Of a stretch of 64,000 nt of DNA, positions 3-61,616 are shown in pieces (the first letter of the stretch is position 1; each line of letters begins with the position of its first letter). The DNA lies in contig CAMKLO010000006.1 of the NCBI GenBank assembly GCA_946413655.1, positions 1-64,000 of the forward strand, in the 5' to 3' direction. Source of the stretch: an uncultured Fibrobacter sp. (GTDB taxonomy: Bacteria > Fibrobacterota > Fibrobacteria > Fibrobacterales > Fibrobacteraceae). A program made the translations under genes and the position numbers. A model generated the notes under the pieces. That model saw nothing but the letters and a program-made list of their open reading frames with translations. It did no database searches and was not told where the DNA came from.

Positions 3-1649
3 GCATACGAAAGGAGCAAAAAATCCTGGAGCGACCTTGAATATAAAATTTCAATCGATACATCCGCAATCAAAAAATACATGAATAAATTTTGGCAGCA
101 AAATAACGGTTTTGGGGATTGCACAAACAAACAAAATAACGTAATCAAAAAGAACCACAATCCAGCAAGCAACAAAGCAAACACATTCTTCATCTGCAAA
201 TCTGGAACTTGGAGAGATGCTCAAAAAGATGAAATAGTGAAATACCTCTATACGGACACATTATACATCGACACCACTGCAAGCGACGGGGATCTCTACT
301 GGGACAAGGAATTCTCCGTCTGCTACGTCTATGATGACAGTTTATGGATCAAAATCGATAAAACAAATTGTACGATGGGTTTGAGCGGATGCACGAAACT
401 TCGCAAAAACGACGCAGAACAGGATTCCGACAATCAATGGTACATTTGCGACGGCAAAGAATGGATTTCCATGAACGATTATGAAACAATCAATAAAAAA
501 GGGCTTCTATTCGCAAAAGATATTCAAAACTGGAAAGATACGACAGATGGAGCCACCCGCAAAGGCGACATAACGGACATCATCTACATTTTCGACAACA
601 AGAACTGGCGCGTAGCAACGCTCCCGGAAGCATCTCTTGGATTGTGTAACGAAAAAAATCAAAACTTTTTTGGATACGCAGAAGAACGTAAAATGCAAGA
701 TTTGACTGACCCTAGAACAAACAAATGTACAGAACCATATAGTAGTTATTGTTACCATGCTAATTATCATCCAGACTTTTACATTTGCCAAAAAGATTAT
801 GATAACAAATTCTATTGGGAGCGTTTAGACACTTTTGACTATGATTACATATGCAACGACTCCAGCTATTACGCCAACAACAAAGACATCCATTGGGGCG
901 GCATAGACCCTATAAAATGTGTAAATTGCAAACAAGAAAACTTCGATTATTTTGAAAACTTTTGCAAAAAACAATGCTATAAAGGAAGATTTAAAATAAA
1001 TGCATTAAATTGTGCAGCAGACTTCGACGAATGCACAGAATCCCTTTTAGGCACAATAGAAGAAGGTCCCACCATAAAATCTAAAACCGAAATCGAATAT
1101 CTAAATGATGAACGTTACAGATACCATTCATACGTGACATCAATAGACAGCACCAACAAAACAACATACATCTGTCGAATCCGATACATCGAATTCAATT
1201 ATGAGAATGAGACATCCTATATCAAACCACATCCATCCTATCAATGGGATGTAGCCTCAGATTTTGATCTCGACGCAATCCCAACTATATGCTCTTGGGA
1301 TATCAACGGTCAAATTGTTGTCGGAAAGAAAAATACATACGTTTGCGAAGACGAATGGCTAAGGTTAGCGACCCCAGTAGAAATTGATGCGGGTTTTGCA
1401 TGTACTATGTACATGCGCGATAACGGAAATTGCAAGGGAGAAATCATTTCGGGAAAGAGCAACAATAAATATGTTTGCGATGAACTTGGTTTTAGAGACG
1501 CCACCCAAGAGGAAATAGAAACGGGAATTGCTTGTTCATCATGCATAATAAATAGCGGTCTGTCATGCAACACAGAAATGGAAAAAGAATTTGGTAAGAC
1601 CTGTACTGAACTCAAGAGTATTGTAGAGAAATGTCGTGCAAATGAATAG
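3..1649 (+). CDS. Cys-rich Fibrobacter-type lipoprotein paralog, 5' end outside window
   Basis: Partial gene. The frame is open from the window edge (first full codon at base 3), and its first codons (AYERSKKSWSDLEYKIS) align with residue 237 onward of the next gene, so the signal peptide and N-terminal domain lie upstream. An internal ATG at 81 is not the true start. What remains is the Cys-rich half: short modules of the kind [YF]-[IV]-C-x(4)-W-x-x-A-T followed by G-x-C (for example near bases 780, 1340 and 1465). It ends with the family C-terminus KCRANE. Function unknown. Bases 1-55 are identical to 2397-2451, pointing to recent duplication or gene conversion with the neighbour. Likely a surface-exposed, disulphide-rich lipoprotein by analogy with its complete paralogs. 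Confidence 0.85.
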   Translation, partial: AYERSKKSWSDLEYKISIDTSAIKKYMNKFWQQNNGFGDCTNKQNNVIKKNHNPASNKANTFFICKSGTWRDAQKDEIVKYLYTDTLYIDTTASDGDLYWDKEFSVCYVYDDSLWIKIDKTNCTMGLSGCTKLRKNDAEQDSDNQWYICDGKEWISMNDYETINKKGLLFAKDIQNWKDTTDGATRKGDITDIIYIFDNKNWRVATLPEASLGLCNEKNQNFFGYAEERKMQDLTDPRTNKCTEPYSSYCYHANYHPDFYICQKDYDNKFYWERLDTFDYDYICNDSSYYANNKDIHWGGIDPIKCVNCKQENFDYFENFCKKQCYKGRFKINALNCAADFDECTESLLGTIEEGPTIKSKTEIEYLNDERYRYHSYVTSIDSTNKTTYICRIRYIEFNYENETSYIKPHPSYQWDVASDFDLDAIPTICSWDINGQIVVGKKNTYVCEDEWLRLATPVEIDAGFACTMYMRDNGNCKGEIISGKSNNKYVCDELGFRDATQEEIETGIACSSCIINSGLSCNTEMEKEFGKTCTELKSIVEKCRANE

Positions 1650-1687
1650 AAACTAGCAAGAGATAAATTTATCAACAGGAGCAAATC
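1650..1687 (+). repeat. Conserved junction sequence between tandem lipoprotein genes, copy 1
   Basis: AGCAAGAGATAAATTTATC plus a purine-rich ribosome binding site (CAGGAGC) before the ATG at 1688. The same block recurs at 3971-4008 and, slightly shortened, at 6268-6304. It marks the duplicated unit and supplies each downstream gene with its RBS. Confidence 0.8.
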
Positions 1688-3970
1688 ATGAAAAACTTAG
1701 CCATTCTTTCATTTCTCCTTTCTCTTTTCCTCGTTTCCTGCGGGGATGATTCCGGCAGTTCCGTAGGCGATTCCAACGAAGAAGCCGAAAATGTCATCAA
1801 CAAGACTATTTCGGGGATGGCGCAGGGTCCCTTTGAAGAAGGGGCTACGGTTTCTGTTTACGAGCTTGACTCAAATTTTCAGAAAACAGGATACAACATA
1901 GAAACGGAAATCACAAATGAACATGGCGAATATTCGATAAATGTAAAGAACTTCAAATCCCAATACGTATTGCTTAAAGCAGACGGCAAATTACATGATA
2001 TTTTCACATCAGAGAAAACCTCAGGCAAAACAACCCTGTACGCACTCGCCGATTTAGGCAACACTAAAAAAACAAACATAAACATTCTCACCCACTTGGC
2101 ACATAAACGGGCGCTATATTTGGTCACAAAAAAGAACATGACCGTAGCCAAAGCCCAAAAGCAAGCAGAAACTGAAGTCTTGAAATCATTCAGCATTAAT
2201 GATGATTTGGGGGCCGCAGAAGATATAGACATTTTTACGGATACCAAACAAAATTGGCCCATACTCTCCATATCTGCACTAATGCAAAGCGATCTTCTAA
2301 ATAGGGGCGTTAAAGACTTCTTGGCAGACTACGTCTCGGATATCGAAAAAGACGGCACTTGGGACGACAAGAAAACAATCACAAAGATTGCCGACTGGGC
2401 ATACGAAAGGAGCAAAAAATCCTGGAGCGACCTTGAATATAAAATTTCAATAGATACATCCGCAATCAAAAAATACATGAATAAATTTTGGCAACAAAAT
2501 TACGGTCTTGGAAATTGTACAAGCAAACAAAACAATGTAGTCAAAAAGAACAACAATCCTGCAAGCAACGAAGCAAATACGTTCTTCATTTGCAAATCTA
2601 CAGATTGGGCAACCGCAAGAACAGTTGAAGTAAATAAATATTACTATACGGATACATTATACACCGACACCACCGCAAGCGACGGAGATATCTACTGGGA
2701 CAAGAAATATTCCGTCTGCTATGTCTATGAAGACAGTGTATGGCACAAGATCAATAAAACCATTTGTAAAACGGGATTGAGTGGCTGTACGAAACTTCGT
2801 AAAAATGAAGCAGAACAGGATACCAGCAAACTCTGGAATATCTGCGATGGCAAAGAGTGGCTTGCTATGGACAACTGTTTTTTAGACTCGACAGAATTAT
2901 GGGAAAAAGGACTTCTGTTCGAAAAAGACACTCTAGATTGGAAAGATACTACCGATGGAACCATCCGTAAAGGCAATAAATCAGATGTCATCTATATTTT
3001 CGACAACAAAAAATGGCGAGTAGCAACACTCATCGAAGCTTCACTTGGGAAATGCAGCAAAAAAAATGTAGGAGCCTTTGGTTACGTAGAAGATTGTAAT
3101 AATTTTCAAAATTCTCCCCTTAGCTACGCTTACGGTGTTCATGGAGCTTACCATGGTCCAGAGTTTGGCAACTATGGTATTTGCCAAAATGATGGAAGCA
3201 ATAATTTTTATTGGAATCTTATAGACGATGGTTCCTTAAACAAATACATATGTAATGATTCCAGCTATTACACTAACAATAAAGCAGGCGATGCCCATTG
3301 GGGTAGTATAGAATCAATAAAGAAAAATTGTATTAACTGCAAACAAGAGGATTTCGATTTTTTAGAAAACCTGTGCAAAAAACGCTGCTATGTACTTGAT
3401 GGAGAAAGTCCTTTTTATTCAAGTATGGATAAAACAAGCAATGGATGGCGCATAGGAAATGTAACGGAATGCGCATTGGGCTTCGGCGGATGCACAGAGT
3501 CCCGTTTAGGCACAATAAACGAAGGACCCTTGATAAAGTTAAAAAATGACTACGAATATTCGGATAACGTAAATGACAAAGCCTATTTATCCGCAACATC
3601 AATAGACAGCGCTAAAAAAACAACTTACATCTGCAGAACCCACTATTCTAATCCCTATTCTAGTGAATATTCGTTTCCCCCACGTTGGTATATCGCCTCG
3701 GATATTGACATCGAATTAGCACCCAAACTATGTGATACTTGGAGGAATAGCAAGGGGGTTCTCATTTCAGGAAAGAATAATAACAAATATGTTTGTGACT
3801 ATGGCGGGTTTAGAATCGCCACCCAAGAAGAAATCGATGCCGGCATCGCATGTACAGAATATATCCGTAATACAGGAATAACGGAATGCGACGATAAACT
3901 AGAAAAAGAAACAGGTATGGCCTGTACAGAGTATATGCAACATGTAGAGAAATGTCGTGCAAATGAATAG
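1688..3970 (+). CDS. Cys-rich lipoprotein, tandem paralog 2
   Basis: Complete 760-residue lipoprotein of unknown function. Residues 1-18 form a lipoprotein signal with lipobox LVSC (Cys18), followed by a short Asp/Ser/Glu linker. Residues about 38-165 form a beta-rich domain starting SGMAQGPFEEGATVSVYELD and containing the NINxLTHL segment. Residues about 165-262 are helical and Lys/Ala rich (KAQKQAETEVL). From about residue 265 the protein is a chain of Cys-containing modules such as FICKSTDWATA, WNICDGKEW and KYVCDYGGFRIAT. The ATG follows CAGGAGCAAATC, a good RBS. The last 100 residues closely resemble those of the gene at 8279. Probably anchored in the outer membrane and exposed (inference). 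It lacks the DGQTYKTVKIG-type signature I associate with FISUMP domains, so I do not call it FISUMP. Confidence 0.85.
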   Translation: MKNLAILSFLLSLFLVSCGDDSGSSVGDSNEEAENVINKTISGMAQGPFEEGATVSVYELDSNFQKTGYNIETEITNEHGEYSINVKNFKSQYVLLKADGKLHDIFTSEKTSGKTTLYALADLGNTKKTNINILTHLAHKRALYLVTKKNMTVAKAQKQAETEVLKSFSINDDLGAAEDIDIFTDTKQNWPILSISALMQSDLLNRGVKDFLADYVSDIEKDGTWDDKKTITKIADWAYERSKKSWSDLEYKISIDTSAIKKYMNKFWQQNYGLGNCTSKQNNVVKKNNNPASNEANTFFICKSTDWATARTVEVNKYYYTDTLYTDTTASDGDIYWDKKYSVCYVYEDSVWHKINKTICKTGLSGCTKLRKNEAEQDTSKLWNICDGKEWLAMDNCFLDSTELWEKGLLFEKDTLDWKDTTDGTIRKGNKSDVIYIFDNKKWRVATLIEASLGKCSKKNVGAFGYVEDCNNFQNSPLSYAYGVHGAYHGPEFGNYGICQNDGSNNFYWNLIDDGSLNKYICNDSSYYTNNKAGDAHWGSIESIKKNCINCKQEDFDFLENLCKKRCYVLDGESPFYSSMDKTSNGWRIGNVTECALGFGGCTESRLGTINEGPLIKLKNDYEYSDNVNDKAYLSATSIDSAKKTTYICRTHYSNPYSSEYSFPPRWYIASDIDIELAPKLCDTWRNSKGVLISGKNNNKYVCDYGGFRIATQEEIDAGIACTEYIRNTGITECDDKLEKETGMACTEYMQHVEKCRANE

Positions 3971-45912: not shown

Positions 45913-46752
45913 CTAAACTTTAGGCTTTCTTCTCGGACGACGGACAATGAACAAGCATGCGCCAATCAACACAAGCGACACGGAAACAGCCTTCCCTATC
46001 GGGAACGCCTCCGAGAATACGAGCGCTCCCGCCAACGTCGGCACTGCCGCGCCGACAGCTGCACTGAACGGAATAATAAACAGCGCGCGCCCACGAGAGA
46101 ATGAAATTTGCGAATAAAGGAACGCAATCCCGTACGTCACCACATAACCAAGAGTCCTAAAATCCAAAAGCAAGTTCGCCACCGACGAGGCATCAATATG
46201 GTCGAGGTCAAAATCCATCGCAAGGCTCTTGTAAAACGCCGCCGAAAGTCCAAAACCCACACCCATGATGAGCGAATCCACCATTTCGCGGTCCTTCACC
46301 CAAATGTGGGCAATCAACGTCGCAAAGCAAAGGCCACCCGCATACACCCAGAGCGTCCCGATATTCTGCACAGCCGTCGATTCGCCTAAATTTTCTACGG
46401 AATACAAAAGCCCTGCCACCACAAAGCAAATCGCGACAACGATGCGCTTCGTCAAGGCTTCCTTCAAAATGCAAAAACCCATAAGCGCCGTCAGCACCGG
46501 ATTCAGAACCATCATCGGCTGCACCTGCGAAAGGTCATATTGCGCCATCGCAATGTAGTAACCCACCGTCGCTAGCCCGGAACACCCGATTCCAAGCCAC
46601 CAATACTTATTTGTGATGACGCCCTTGAAAAACTCCCAAGGCCTAGAAGTTCCGCCCGTGCGCTTGCCCACAGTCGAAACCCCGGACTTTTCCAAGATAT
46701 TTCCACAAGCAAATAAAAACGCAGGACCAATAGTTAGAAGTAAGAATAACAT
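45913..46752 (-). CDS. EamA/DMT family transporter
   Basis: 279 residues, about ten membrane helices in two EamA repeats (about 1-130 and 140-275), with the second repeat ending in the usual basic tail (RRPRRKPKV). Exports small metabolites; substrate unknown. The ATG is only three bases from the edge of an AGTTACTAG repeat element, and no Shine-Dalgarno is visible, so the element appears to have replaced the native upstream region. Confidence 0.85.
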   Translation of the reverse strand: MLFLLLTIGPAFLFACGNILEKSGVSTVGKRTGGTSRPWEFFKGVITNKYWWLGIGCSGLATVGYYIAMAQYDLSQVQPMMVLNPVLTALMGFCILKEALTKRIVVAICFVVAGLLYSVENLGESTAVQNIGTLWVYAGGLCFATLIAHIWVKDREMVDSLIMGVGFGLSAAFYKSLAMDFDLDHIDASSVANLLLDFRTLGYVVTYGIAFLYSQISFSRGRALFIIPFSAAVGAAVPTLAGALVFSEAFPIGKAVSVSLVLIGACLFIVRRPRRKPKV

Positions 46753-46755
46753 ACG

Positions 46756-46792
46756 AGTTACTAGTTACTAGTTACTAGTTTATAGTTACTAG
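46756..46792. repeat. AGTTACTAG repeat element, copy 1, left half
   Basis: Four consecutive units of AGTTACTAG type, one degenerate (TTTATAG). Together with the inverted right half at 47161-47194 it brackets the four-helix-bundle gene. Same family as elements at 58851, 60223 and 61505. Confidence 0.75.
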
Positions 46793-46799
46793 GATAGAA

Positions 46800-47153
46800 T
46801 CATTTCCATTGCATCAAAGAACGAATCATTCTACTGATTTCATCCAACATAGCCAAAGGTGCTTTTATTTTCATTTCATCGACAAAACCGATTTCTTTGC
46901 ATAATAAAAGCTGCGTTTCTAATTCTGCAGCGGAGCCTTTGGCTATTCGCAAAAAATTTGTCATTTGTGTTTTAGATTCTCGTCCACAGCCTTCAGCAAT
47001 ATTAGAAGGAATCGACACCACAGATCTTCTCATTTGATCAGACAACGCATATAGTTCTTCTTTTGGAAGCAATTTTGCAATTGCATAAACTTCTTTAGCC
47101 AAATTCATCGCTTTACGCCAAACTATTAAATTCTGATAATTTGAAACAGTCAT
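46800..47153 (-). CDS. Four helix bundle protein (S23/IVP family)
   Basis: 117 residues. Family features: starts SNYQNLIVWRKAMNLAKEVY, then LSDQMRRSVVSIPSNIAEGC (about 39) and a last helix MIRSLMQWK. Relatives are encoded in intervening sequences of 23S rRNA genes and at many isolated chromosomal sites; a nucleic-acid-associated role is suspected but not established. Here the gene fills the interior of an inverted-repeat element (46756-47194), with its start codon overlapping a motif shared by short, gene-less copies of the element. It therefore looks like a component or cargo of that element. Confidence 0.88.
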   Translation of the reverse strand: MTVSNYQNLIVWRKAMNLAKEVYAIAKLLPKEELYALSDQMRRSVVSIPSNIAEGCGRESKTQMTNFLRIAKGSAAELETQLLLCKEIGFVDEMKIKAPLAMLDEISRMIRSLMQWK

Positions 47154-47160
47154 AATTACA

Positions 47161-47194
47161 TTTCTAGTAACTAGTAACTCAGAACTAGTAACTA
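47161..47194. repeat. AGTTACTAG repeat element, copy 1, right half (inverted)
   Basis: TTTCTAGTAACTAGTAACT plus a second CTAGTAACT after CAGAA. It is the reverse complement type of the left half. The final CTA is the stop codon (TAG) of the lytic transglycosylase gene, so insertion reached the 3' end of that gene. Confidence 0.75.
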
Positions 47195-49471
47195 AATCCC
47201 GTCATATATTTCCTTATAAATCCAATAGTTCCCCATGACGCGCTTCACGTATTCGCGGGTTTCCCAGTAGCTGATTTCCTCGACGCGCAAATCCCACGGG
47301 AGACCTTCGCTTTGGGATTGCCAGCGTTTCGTCGGCTTCGGCCCCGCATTGTAATTGCAAAGCACGTACATGTAGTCGTTCTTGTAATCGTCCTTGAGGT
47401 CCACCAAATAGCGGATACCCAGGCGGATATTCAAGTAGGCGTTGTACAAGCGTTTCGGATCGAAATTAGAAATATCTTCTTTTTCGGCAAGCATCTTGCC
47501 CGTCGCAGGCATAATCTGCAAAAGCCCGCAAGCTCCCGCAGGAGATGTTATCTGGAAATCGAATATGGATTCCTGGCGCATCACACTATAGACAAAGAAC
47601 GGGTCGATGTTGTTGCCTGAATAATAGACCACCGGATCGGCATACGGTACAGGGTACAGGTAATGCAACACGTCTATCGGCGGAGCCATGAGCAGGCGCC
47701 TGTCTATTTTTGCCTGGAACTGTCTTGCAAGCCTATAACCGGCAGCTATTTCGCCCATATCATAGAACAATTTGCCGTACTCATAAAGGAAATCCAGACG
47801 CTTGTAGTTTTTCTTTCTCAATTCGTCATAAAGTCTAAAGGCATCATCTTCGAAACCATAAATAAACAACTTCTTGATGCGTTCGTAACGTTCCTTGTTG
47901 TACGAAGGATCCGGCTTGCCTAGTTTGTTCACAGAACGAATCCAATCCAACGTCGTCGCCGGGGACATTTGCACCCCATGTGCATATGGAATCTGATCTG
48001 CCGGCAGCAAGTTGTTTTCCGAGAGTTTCATACGGCTGCGGTGAGCGTAATACGAAAGCGGGAAATCCTTGATACAGTCCAAATAGGCTTCACGCGCAAG
48101 CGAATCTTCGTGCATTTTCATGTACGTATCGCCAAGGAACATCCTCGAAGCGCTTCCGCTCCACATGAACGGTTCCTTCGTCGCCTCCCGGAAATTGGCA
48201 GCGGCCTCCACCCACATGCCACGCTTGAAATACACATAGCCGATGCGGAACCTCGCCCACTGACGCTTCTGATTGTTCTTGAAACGCTTGTGGACCAGCT
48301 TCATGTAGCAATCGACCGCTTTATCGTACATCAGCTTCTGTTCAAACTCGAAACCGCGCAACCAAAGGTTGTTCGCATTTTCGGTGCTGTACTGGCTTAC
48401 GTCTTGCAAAAGCGAATCATAATTACGGATTTCTTCACCGAATAGTTCCGCAGATTCCTTGCGGTAAAGTTTCAAGATATTCTGAATCCACGACGGACGC
48501 GGTTCCACGTTTTCTATCAAATAACGGTACTGTTCAATGGCATCTTCGTTGCGGTTCAGTGCGCGCAAGGCGCCGGCACGTTTTTCCCACAAATTGATAC
48601 GGGTATTCAAATCCAGCGTGCTCTTTTTGAGGTTGGCGTAAGCCGGGTCGTCGAGCTGTACCACCAAAGACGGATTCTTCTGCGCCTGCTGTGCATCCAT
48701 AATCTGAATGGAGTCGAGCAAATCAATGCAGTTTTTCATTTCGTCCTTCGTGCAGGCCATTTTCGCATAAGCGACCTTTTCAGCAAGCGATTCGGGAGTA
48801 CCGAGCACTTCTCTCAGACGACGGATAGACGCAAAAGCAGAATCCTTGTACGATGATTTGCTTGTCAAGAGTTTCATGTAAAGGCGTTTTGCCTGCTTCA
48901 ACTGGTAGGAATCCTCCAAATACCGCGCATAGCGGTACTTCAGCGGCACAACATCTTCACCGTCCGGGTTATTTTCGAGGAAAATCATCAGTGAATCCGC
49001 ACGGGCGGCATCGTTAATCGAGAAATCCGCCATCGTCGCCTCGATTCTCAAGCGGTCTGCCACCTCGCGAAATCCCTTGTCATTTTCCAAATTCTTTTCC
49101 AGGCGCAGCGTCTCGCGCATCTTGGCGAACTTTTCCTGTTTGAACTCGGCCTGAGCCATGCGCAAAATGACGCTTCCCGTCAAACCGGGTTCGCGGTCGC
49201 GCAAGGAATTATAGGCCGCATAGGCGCTATCCCACTGTCCACTGTAATAAAAATAAGCAGCACGTGCAAAGTCGCGGTGGTTCTGCGAAACAGAGATATC
49301 GTTCATCATCTTCTTCGCGCGGGCAGCCCGGATGACCGCATCCTGGAACTGGTCCGGTGCGACGGACTCCTGATCCGTAAAAGGAGACTTATAAAGAGAA
49401 TATACCGAACCGTCCATCTGCGCATACAAGACGGTCGTACAAGCAATCAATAAAGAATACAATAGTTTCAT
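47192..49471 (-). CDS. slt: Soluble lytic transglycosylase (Slt70-like) with TPR-type superhelix
   Basis: 759 residues from the ATG at 49471, chosen because GTGGA lies upstream and the protein then begins with a clean signal peptide (MKLLYSLLIACTTVLYA|Q). A long alpha-superhelical region (about 20-580) with TPR-like repeats is followed by the catalytic SLT domain: SVMRQESIFDFQITSPAGAC with the catalytic Glu (about 637), GLLQIMPATGKMLA, LNIRLGIRYL and VLCNYNAGP. Cleaves peptidoglycan glycan strands to anhydro-muropeptides in the periplasm. Its stop codon lies in a repeat element. It starts 17 bases after the ptsI stop, probably co-transcribed. Confidence 0.92.
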   Translation of the reverse strand: MKLLYSLLIACTTVLYAQMDGSVYSLYKSPFTDQESVAPDQFQDAVIRAARAKKMMNDISVSQNHRDFARAAYFYYSGQWDSAYAAYNSLRDREPGLTGSVILRMAQAEFKQEKFAKMRETLRLEKNLENDKGFREVADRLRIEATMADFSINDAARADSLMIFLENNPDGEDVVPLKYRYARYLEDSYQLKQAKRLYMKLLTSKSSYKDSAFASIRRLREVLGTPESLAEKVAYAKMACTKDEMKNCIDLLDSIQIMDAQQAQKNPSLVVQLDDPAYANLKKSTLDLNTRINLWEKRAGALRALNRNEDAIEQYRYLIENVEPRPSWIQNILKLYRKESAELFGEEIRNYDSLLQDVSQYSTENANNLWLRGFEFEQKLMYDKAVDCYMKLVHKRFKNNQKRQWARFRIGYVYFKRGMWVEAAANFREATKEPFMWSGSASRMFLGDTYMKMHEDSLAREAYLDCIKDFPLSYYAHRSRMKLSENNLLPADQIPYAHGVQMSPATTLDWIRSVNKLGKPDPSYNKERYERIKKLFIYGFEDDAFRLYDELRKKNYKRLDFLYEYGKLFYDMGEIAAGYRLARQFQAKIDRRLLMAPPIDVLHYLYPVPYADPVVYYSGNNIDPFFVYSVMRQESIFDFQITSPAGACGLLQIMPATGKMLAEKEDISNFDPKRLYNAYLNIRLGIRYLVDLKDDYKNDYMYVLCNYNAGPKPTKRWQSQSEGLPWDLRVEEISYWETREYVKRVMGNYWIYKEIYDGI

Positions 49472-49488
49472 CAATATTCCACGCAATT

Positions 49489-58850: not shown

Positions 58851-58968
58851 AGTTACTAGAGTTGAGTTACTAGAGTTGAGTTACTAGAGTTGAGTTACTA
58901 GTTACTAGTTAATAGTTAATAGTTACTAGAAACAGCGATAAGAACATCTCTAGTAACTCAAAACTATA
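58851..58968. repeat. AGTTACTAG repeat element, copy 2 (short form)
   Basis: Three tandem 14-base units AGTTACTAGAGTTG, then AGTTACTAG/TTAATAG units, an interior AAACAGCGATAAGAACATCT, and an inverted end CTAGTAACT. Lies in the divergent region between batB and the GGDEF gene. Confidence 0.75.
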
Positions 58969-60222: not shown

Positions 60223-60345
60223 AGTAACTAGTTACTAGTTACTAGTTACTAGTTATTAGTAATTGCGATAAGAACGTCTCTAGTTACTAGTAACTCTGAA
60301 CTAGTAACTGCGCCGGCACCCTAGTAACTTAGAACTCGAAACTCA
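60223..60345. repeat. AGTTACTAG repeat element, copy 3 (short form)
   Basis: GAGTAACTAGTTACTAGTTA and further units, interior AATTGCGATAAGAACGTCT, then inverted CTAGTTACTAGTAACT and two more spaced CTAGTAACT units. Lies between the convergent stops of the GGDEF gene and batA. Confidence 0.75.
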
Positions 60346-61504: not shown

Positions 61505-61616
61505 GAGTTACTAGATACTAGTTAGTAGTTAGTAGTTACTAGTTACTAGTTAATAGTTAATAGAGATTGCAATAAGAACATTTCTAGCAACTAGTAACTT
61601 AGAACTCGGAACTAAA
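61505..61616. repeat. AGTTACTAG repeat element, copy 4 (short form)
   Basis: GAGTTACTAGATACTAGTTA followed by GTAGTTACTAG units, interior AGATTGCAATAAGAACATTT, then inverted CTAGCAACTAGTAACT and diverged ends. Lies between the azlD stop and the batA start. Confidence 0.75.

Follow-up and report, generated by a model that had tools for sequence, protein, structure and literature searches.

The 64,000-nt window, the whole stretch of DNA analysed here, holds one gene-bearing copy and three gene-less copies of what is likely a mobile element, and we put at about two in three the probability that the S23 protein encoded in the long copy recognises its own heptamer repeat and causes copies of either kind to spread. 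Since S23 genes of many bacterial phyla mostly lie within inverted heptamer arrays, and since in the genus the arrays are commoner in genomes with the matching gene, genes and arrays likely belong to one widespread and unrecognised kind of mobile element. The architecture, the genus-level coupling of protein and heptamer, the abundance of cognate arrays, and the presence or absence, replacement, and nesting of elements at orthologous sites can be read from the compared sequences, and movement is what we infer from them.

The arrays are built of the heptamer AGTTACT, repeated head to tail in one arm and in inverted form (AGTAACT) in the opposite arm, and the coordinates are collected in Table 1. 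The earlier note on this DNA had described an inverted-repeat element carrying a four-helix-bundle gene, with short copies nearby, and that description is confirmed at four places. The window has 25 occurrences of AGTTACTAG, where 0.10 would be expected and 100 shuffles gave 3 at most, and these are confined to 46756-47193, 58851-58958, 60230-60329, and 61506-61599. A scan for tandem units of 4 to 12 bases finds two-armed period-7 arrays at the same four places. Period 7 gives 122 hits against 1 in the shuffled window, periods 8 to 12 give 0 to 3, periods 4 and 5 are without excess, and period 6 is mildly raised (64 versus 21 shuffled); on this profile, with no signal at periods 8 to 12 and period 6 mildly above shuffles, chance or low complexity is rejected as the origin of the arrays.

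Table 1. The gene-bearing element, its gene-less copies and the flanking genes in the window
Feature	Positions	Strand	Remarks
S23 / 23S_rRNA_IVP four-helix-bundle gene, 117 aa	46800..47153	-	ORF list; PF05635, TIGR02436 and fold
Upstream heptamer arm (gene sense), TAGTTACTAGTTCTGAGTTACTAGTTACTAG	47164..47194	-	Its outer TAG serves the transglycosylase gene as stop codon
Downstream inverted arm (gene sense), AGTAACT units	46756..46792	-	EamA-like ATG follows 3 nt after its end
Gene-less AGTTACT copy	58851..58966	-	Between BatA-like (-) and GGDEF (+) genes
Gene-less AGTTACT copy	60223..60343	-	Between GGDEF gene (+) and BatA-like gene (-)
Gene-less AGTTACT copy, common 24-nt loop	61506..61613	-	Upstream of BatA-like gene
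Flanking lytic transglycosylase gene (SLT)	47192..49486	-	Stop codon opens the insertion site (empty-site comparison)
Flanking EamA-like transporter gene	45913..46752	-	ATG 3-4 nt past the transglycosylase stop in 16 of 30 genomes

The long arms enclose the S23 gene alone, as had been claimed: the ORF list of the window has no second frame of at least 60 aa between them, and the Pfam and NCBIfam matches of this only frame are not to a transposase, leaving no transposase or recombinase gene in the window element. All three short copies have the same ends, with one correction to the earlier note, namely that the array of the third copy starts with an inverted AGTAACT unit at 60223. The inner right border said to be common to long and short copies is present (ATAATTACATTTCTAG and ATAAGAACATTTCTAG) but is missing from the orthologous gene-bearing copy in genome G004, and it is weak evidence for that reason. 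The window genome as a whole has 98 exact matches to the AGTTACT dimer at 74 places, and in the commonest two-armed gene-less form the arms are joined by a distinct 24-nt loop. At the orthologous sites of relatives (26 of 30 loci parsed, the distant ones having other neighbours), AGTTACT is found at the 61506 site in G004 and in none of the other parsed loci, and at the 60223 and 61506 sites relatives lack the copies or have arrays of other heptamers instead. At 3 loci of the window genome (L010, L037, and L038 of G000), GC-rich mini-hairpins such as GGTGCCTTCGGCAC, whose 14 nt amount to two heptamer lengths, stand between heptamers, some of them keeping the 7-nt register.

Folded as a 451-nt transcript, the gene-bearing copy pairs its arms (MFE -111.2, z = -3.67, with 0 of 100 shuffles as low). 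The gene-less copies at 58851 and 61506 fold with z = -4.22 and z = -3.41, and the one at 60223 (z = -1.95) folds little better than its shuffles. An Rfam search of the window gave no match, on which ground a known RNA family is rejected for the element. A phage origin is rejected as well, the window S23 being unmatched by any record of the phage collection.

The S23 protein belongs to its family by profile above the curated cut-offs, with E = 7 × 10−39 and 132.7 bits to PF05635 (23S_rRNA_IVP; cut-off 33.8) and 126 bits to TIGR02436 (cut-off 24), and by its four-helix fold. The structure prediction has four helices with a pLDDT of 93.9, and Foldseek places this model closest to 2gsc with a TM score of 0.91, with 2rld also among the closest. 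Those two PDB entries, with five chains each, go by names such as 'hypothetical protein' and 'protein of unknown function', S23 structures having been solved since 2006. Avd is further off (4dwl, TM 0.78, E = 0.03), chains of the ribonucleoprotein of diversity-generating retroelements (DGRs) are matched too, and the profile matches to bAvd in Pfam (E = 10−4, 23.2 bits, cut-off 40) and to NF033474 (28.8 bits, cut-off 80) are below their cut-offs. No catalytic domain was recognised in S23 by Pfam, NCBIfam, or structure search. At L041, L047, L052, and other loci, the S23 frame seems to terminate within the heptamer array, so the C-terminal tail there would be encoded by the repeat.

A profile scan of 61 genomes of the genus finds S23 in 40 of them, with 73 hits in total, and three of these genes are in the window genome. 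We fetched 72 (G062:C25 was left out) and analysed 69, as L101, L105, and L107 had no phmmer ORF. Period-7 tandems are found in the 160-bp flanks of 67 of the 69 loci (1592 hits against 23 shuffled), the two where they were not found being L051 and L093, and 62 loci have at least 5 hits. Periods 8 to 12 give 9, 3, 0, 1, and 0 hits in these flanks, and period 6 is mildly raised (174 versus 110 shuffled). At 39 of the 69 loci the match between one flank and the inverted other is better than in all shuffled controls. The heptamers are of many classes, and close S23 proteins mostly have the same class, whether at the same site or at different sites. The named Fibrobacter records L115 and L141 have the same S23 flanks as loci of G011 and G060, and on this ground the genus is taken to be Fibrobacter. 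The orientation of the Fibrobacter loci is +S+ in 25 of 69, with 6 unplaced, which is a noisy count. Ten gene-less places with ACGAGAG (AGACGAG) in G004 (L260-L269) are mostly one-armed; judged by eye, they lie near gene starts or promoter-like stretches, so an effect on expression might be possible.

The idea that only this gene and only AGTTACT are involved is rejected, as all three S23 genes of the window genome have heptamer ends. The earlier note had listed two observations that would speak against its own idea of a small mobile or repeat system, other four-helix-bundle genes of the genome lacking these ends, and short copies in a genome with no gene-bearing one. Taken literally, both are seen. 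AGTTACT is missing from the other two S23 genes, but these have inverted arrays of their own, AGGAAGT/AGACAGT at one and AGACGAG at the other. AGTTACT matches occur in G012, G014, G017, G025, G027, and G034, with counts of 1 to 9 in genomes without any S23 hit versus 98, 34, and 23 in carriers. Both observations refine the two-part idea and do not kill it. The broader claim, that the S23 gene is part of an undescribed small mobile or repeat system for which no transposase is known, gains support and is widened by the genus, the other phyla, the junctions, and the abundance of arrays.

Among S23 genes at different sites in the genus, the coupling of S23 to heptamer has a Spearman coefficient of -0.21, where the lowest of 500 label permutations is -0.12, and at 60-80% protein identity the heptamers are within one base of each other in 62% of 58 pairs. 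Across phyla, over the 148 of 161 loci with a heptamer call, the coupling is only weak, with a Spearman coefficient of -0.105 that 11 of 400 permutations equalled, as would be expected if specificity shifts within about 40% divergence, which is no proof that it does. If S23 drives its own arrays, then the arrays should be commoner in genomes with the cognate gene. This is found for 5 of 5 heptamers, with Mann-Whitney P values of 0.0011, 0.0006, 3 × 10−5, 0.0010, and 0.0049, and 0 of 20000 permutations reach the joint result. Leaving out G033 and subtracting 8 matches from every carrier does not change that figure of 0 of 20000. The counts are of exact 16-base matches, so a long array is counted several times, and the gene's own arms contribute 0 to 3 per element. 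The carriers of AGTTACT are the exact top three of 37 genomes (the top two without G033), and those of AAGTAGG the exact top six of 37. G033 is taken as an AGTTACT carrier for the dimer in its left arm, its heptamer being called AGTTCCT, and without it the AGTTACT P value is 0.006. When each carrier is set beside the closest non-carrier on a tree of the EamA gene, it has the higher count in 15 of 15 cases, with some relatives reused, and in 14 of 15 when its own arms are subtracted, G016 then dropping below G021. As a control, the patterns read backward have no match for four heptamers, and the fifth matched 6 of 60 genomes (maximum 21, in G011), where it is probably another heptamer. Three genomes are rich in arrays with no cognate gene detected, namely G073 (83 AACTTAG), G018 (176 ACGAGAG), and G006 (101 AGTGGTT), for which gene loss or assembly gaps could be the cause.

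The comparison of empty with filled sites, which the earlier note had named as a check, finds orthologous junctions that are filled or empty depending on the genome. For each junction the 30 loci were taken by top score, from 58, 60, and 55 of 61 genomes matched, and are not a random draw. At the window junction, between the transglycosylase stop and the EamA start, 16 of 30 genomes are empty with 3-4 nt, and 7 have an intact S23 element, in three heptamer classes. There are also one decayed copy of 197 nt (G060), three remnants of 15-50 nt, of which one shares its right end with the window copy, and three unparsed loci. The lysS|lolC junction is filled in 18 of 30 with four heptamer classes, next to three 24-nt remnants with heptamer traces, seven empty junctions of 3-7 nt, and two unparsed loci. 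On the EamA-gene tree the state of the window junction is scattered, with 11 changes over all states and 6 for S23 presence or absence (without G006 and G081); tree shuffles have a mean of 10.7 changes, in a count that treats the unparsed G006 and G081 as empty. At one site, a patchy pattern of this kind could also come from homologous recombination that exchanges alleles.

Elements are also found one inside another. In G079 an AGTGGTT element with an S23 of the AGTGGTT clade lies inside the outer ends of an AAGTAGG element known from G029, and G073 and G060 have the right arm of an AGACGAG element as their outermost one; in these nested elements the S23 clade goes with the inner arms. In the AATTCGG class the element takes the place of the final codons of the gene upstream. 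Inspection by eye finds no constant target-site duplication at two junctions, and the junctions vary by heptamer class. The suggestion that short copies are internal-deletion derivatives of the long one is borne out in one element of another class only, the G060 remnant, which retains a partial S23 frame.

Beyond the genus, an alignment-guided scan yields 587 confirmed S23 loci, of which we took the best 80, 3 of them from Fibrobacter and the remainder from Clostridia, Bacteroidota, Planctomycetes, Kiritimatiellota, candidate phyla, Proteobacteria, and others. Period-7 flanks are found at 72 of these best 80 loci (1469 hits versus 41 shuffled), or 69 of 77 without the three Fibrobacter loci, and the inverted flanks match above all controls at 50 of 80. 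The earlier note had proposed counting four-helix-bundle genes with these ends; period-7 flanks of any heptamer stand at 67 of 69 loci in the genus and 72 of 80 across phyla. At a score of at least 12, 62 of 78 S23 genes have inverted flanks versus 5 of 137 other ORFs of the same loci. At least one period-7 tandem lies beside 65 of 135 control ORFs of diverse loci, at a density about 1/6 of that of S23. In 14 of 72 loci (two from Fibrobacter) a further array of the S23 gene's own heptamer stands apart from the gene in that locus, as against 3 of 576 tests with other heptamers. Neighbour genes around the element are co-directional in 53 of 74 placed loci. The unit is not 7 bases in every case, being 8 bases at L226, L229, L310, and L313 by count, about 8 at L147, L161, and L166 by eye, and 9 at L167 by eye. 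At two Bacteroidota loci (L154 and L157) the frame after S23 starts like nadD, judged by a motif. In Flavobacterium columnare, S23 is described between the guanylate kinase and nicotinate-nucleotide adenylyltransferase genes (PMC5524665), and the nadD side is perhaps another junction hotspot in Bacteroidota.

Nineteen plasmid S23 loci, mostly cyanobacterial, have clear period-7 tandems in 12 cases and period-8 tandems in 4. Inverted arrays of two-letter units, left out by the filter, are present at L222 and L316, L219 and L310 have arrays without inversion, and no arrays were found at L312. Some of these S23 genes lie between cas6 and cas4, between cmr2 and cmr3, or between ribonucleotide reductase genes. 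S23 is listed among the functions found in cas loci, with 18 genes, often with cas4/cas6 (PMC3936711), and S23 elements sitting within rows of cas genes may explain that listing.

The ribosomal case is reached from a plasmid locus. In Azospirillum lipoferum plasmid AZO_p2 (NC_016586.1), the S23 frame (L228:1501-1854) is inside a 23S rRNA match (292-3354) and has inverted period-7 arms on both sides. The PLSDB gene table has no feature at L228:292-3354 of NC_016586.1, the 23S rRNA with this S23-bearing intervening sequence (IVS). The Coxiella 23S IVS is described with terminal inverted repeats and with tandem GACAGAT heptamers upstream of the S23p ORF (PMC4990558). From this architecture in Azospirillum and Coxiella, the rRNA IVSs would seem to be this element in a different niche, and the best reading includes them in a two-part family made of an S23 specificity factor and heptamer ends.

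How such an element would work can be outlined. The heptamer arrays would be its ends, folded into a hairpin as RNA or as single-stranded DNA, and an S23 oligomer would bind its own heptamer repeat and recruit copying or repair enzymes of the host. Host enzymes are invoked because no catalytic domain can be recognised in S23 and because a recognisable reverse transcriptase is missing from most of the genus genomes with S23. An insertion next to a stop codon or within an exposed rRNA helix would be tolerated because the hairpin spares the flanking products and may be excised from RNA, as the Coxiella rRNA IVS is by RNase III. By analogy with MITEs, the gene-less copies would be mobilised in trans. 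A wider proposal, which we offer as tentative, is that S23 proteins define a new mobile class with no transposase, recombinase, or reverse transcriptase, in which an oligomeric four-helix bundle recognises a 7-base code that varies, produces or copies heptamer arrays of its own, and settles at gene junctions and in rRNA helices, and that they may be the missing cause of the intergenic heptamer repeats of cyanobacteria, Beggiatoaceae, and xanthomonads.

Several results speak against the mobile-element reading, namely the array-rich genomes with no cognate gene detected, the failure to see a constant target-site duplication by eye, the weak coupling across phyla, the mostly one-armed places of G004, the poorly folding copy at 60223, the plasmid loci whose arrays are uninverted or missing, and the period-7 tandems beside other ORFs. 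Other explanations have also been weighed. The arrays might be RNA processing or regulatory hairpins, with S23 as an RNA-binding partner that protects or tunes its cognates, and with the spread left to homologous recombination and selection. The stable stems of the gene-bearing copy and of 2 of the 3 gene-less copies suit that account, as do the co-directional neighbours in 53 of 74 placed cross-phylum loci and the cutting of Coxiella IVS RNA by RNase III in vitro described in PMC4990558; we nevertheless hold it unlikely, since empty junctions of 3-7 nt, several S23/heptamer pairs per junction, and nesting point to insertion of a foreign unit. A transposase or integrase of the host or of a phage could instead act on the heptamer ends, with S23 helping or hitch-hiking. 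S23 has no recognised catalytic domain, and the search for trans-acting enzymes covered reverse transcriptase only, both of which leave room for such an enzyme. Each heptamer would need a matching enzyme, however, and the matching gene that is seen is S23, which makes this decidedly unlikely.

It is improbable that S23 is a passenger, picked up where slippage at hotspots makes heptamer arrays that capture small genes, because the heptamer is predicted by S23 clade at different sites, array number tracks the cognate gene, and inverted arrays are rare at other ORFs (5 of 137). What recommends slippage is that heptamers are the commonest repeat class in most surveyed genomes and that polymerase slippage has been proposed for them, as told in PMC4679880, and that AGTTACT arrays exist in genomes without an S23 hit. 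The remaining candidate is a retroelement in which S23 acts like Avd of the DGRs, with a reverse transcriptase supplied in trans. The predicted structure matches Avd (4dwl, TM 0.78, E = 0.03) and the DGR ribonucleoprotein chains, and there is the bAvd hit of E = 10−4 below the cut-off. Against these, among the 61 genomes of the genus the reverse transcriptase profile PF00078 has matches in 16, which comprise 13 of the 40 with S23 and 3 of the 21 without. The window genome has one match, and 27 of the 40 S23-bearing genomes have none, including the 99-100% complete G004, G010, G029, G079, G024, and G032. A reverse transcriptase is thereby rejected as a necessary partner, and the retroelement reading, already disfavoured for the genus, is very improbable. 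With the Avd models below their cut-offs and a reverse transcriptase match in 16 of 61 genomes only, S23 does not fall within the DGR systems.

Our preferred reading of a mobile element with S23 as its specificity factor ties together S23 proteins, rRNA IVSs, and TAACTGA-type heptamers by data and makes each of them testable. Every S23 gene brings a predicted 7-base target, many S23/heptamer pairs are available, and empty, filled, nested, and decayed junctions are mapped. If S23 alone suffices, this would be protein-guided mobility without any known DNA-moving enzyme. A search of the open-access literature, with subscription journals and preprints outside its scope, found in the passages it returned no general link between S23 genes and heptamer arrays. 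What is new is the system, namely a protein in which no enzyme domain is known, together with 7-base ends that vary and cognate gene-less copies, of which the rRNA IVSs are the known corner. An alternative view would take the IVS as the parent kind and the S23/heptamer system as a variant of it.

Among known systems, MITEs and REP-RAYT consist of short hairpin-forming gene-less copies and a gene-bearing partner with common ends. S23 elements are like them in having hairpin gene-less copies and a gene-bearing partner with the same ends, and also, as in a transposon with its MITEs, a copy number that tracks the gene, with G073, G018, and G006 as exceptions. They differ in having no transposase-type gene and in having ends made of tandem heptamers of many sequences rather than a single terminal repeat. 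The intergenic heptamer repeats, to which the STRR of cyanobacteria belong, are dispersed, have period 7, and are strain-specific in position, as S23 arrays are. They include TAACTGA in Beggiatoaceae, Cyanobacteria, and Bacteroidetes, for which a transfer mechanism is called not evident (PMC4679880), and GGGNATC in Xanthomonas and Nostoc, generally with no tie to mobile elements (PMC4692102); a comparison within Cyanothece finds indels of mostly 7 nt. Where PMC4679880 and PMC4692102 treat these repeats they name no gene partner, whereas here S23 genes are the gene-bearing members. The four-helix fold is held in common with Avd of the DGRs, and the homology of 4DWL and 2GSC is noted in PMC10053308, but the reverse transcriptase of a DGR is unmatched in 27 of 40 S23-bearing genus genomes.

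The 23S rRNA IVSs of Coxiella, Leptospira, and Azospirillum have, like the window element, an S23 ORF between inverted repeats, which in the window element can form a stem in silico, and a sporadic distribution. The IVSs occur in forms with and without an ORF, that of Salmonella being among them. Such forms are also described in CPR rRNA insertions, within which IVP genes are found (PMC11270868), and the functionality and origin of rRNA intervening sequences have been called unclear (PMC4990558). Unlike these, the window element is not inside a 23S rRNA gene, and the Fibrobacter elements sit between protein genes, with 74 array places in one genome and a heptamer that varies by S23 clade.
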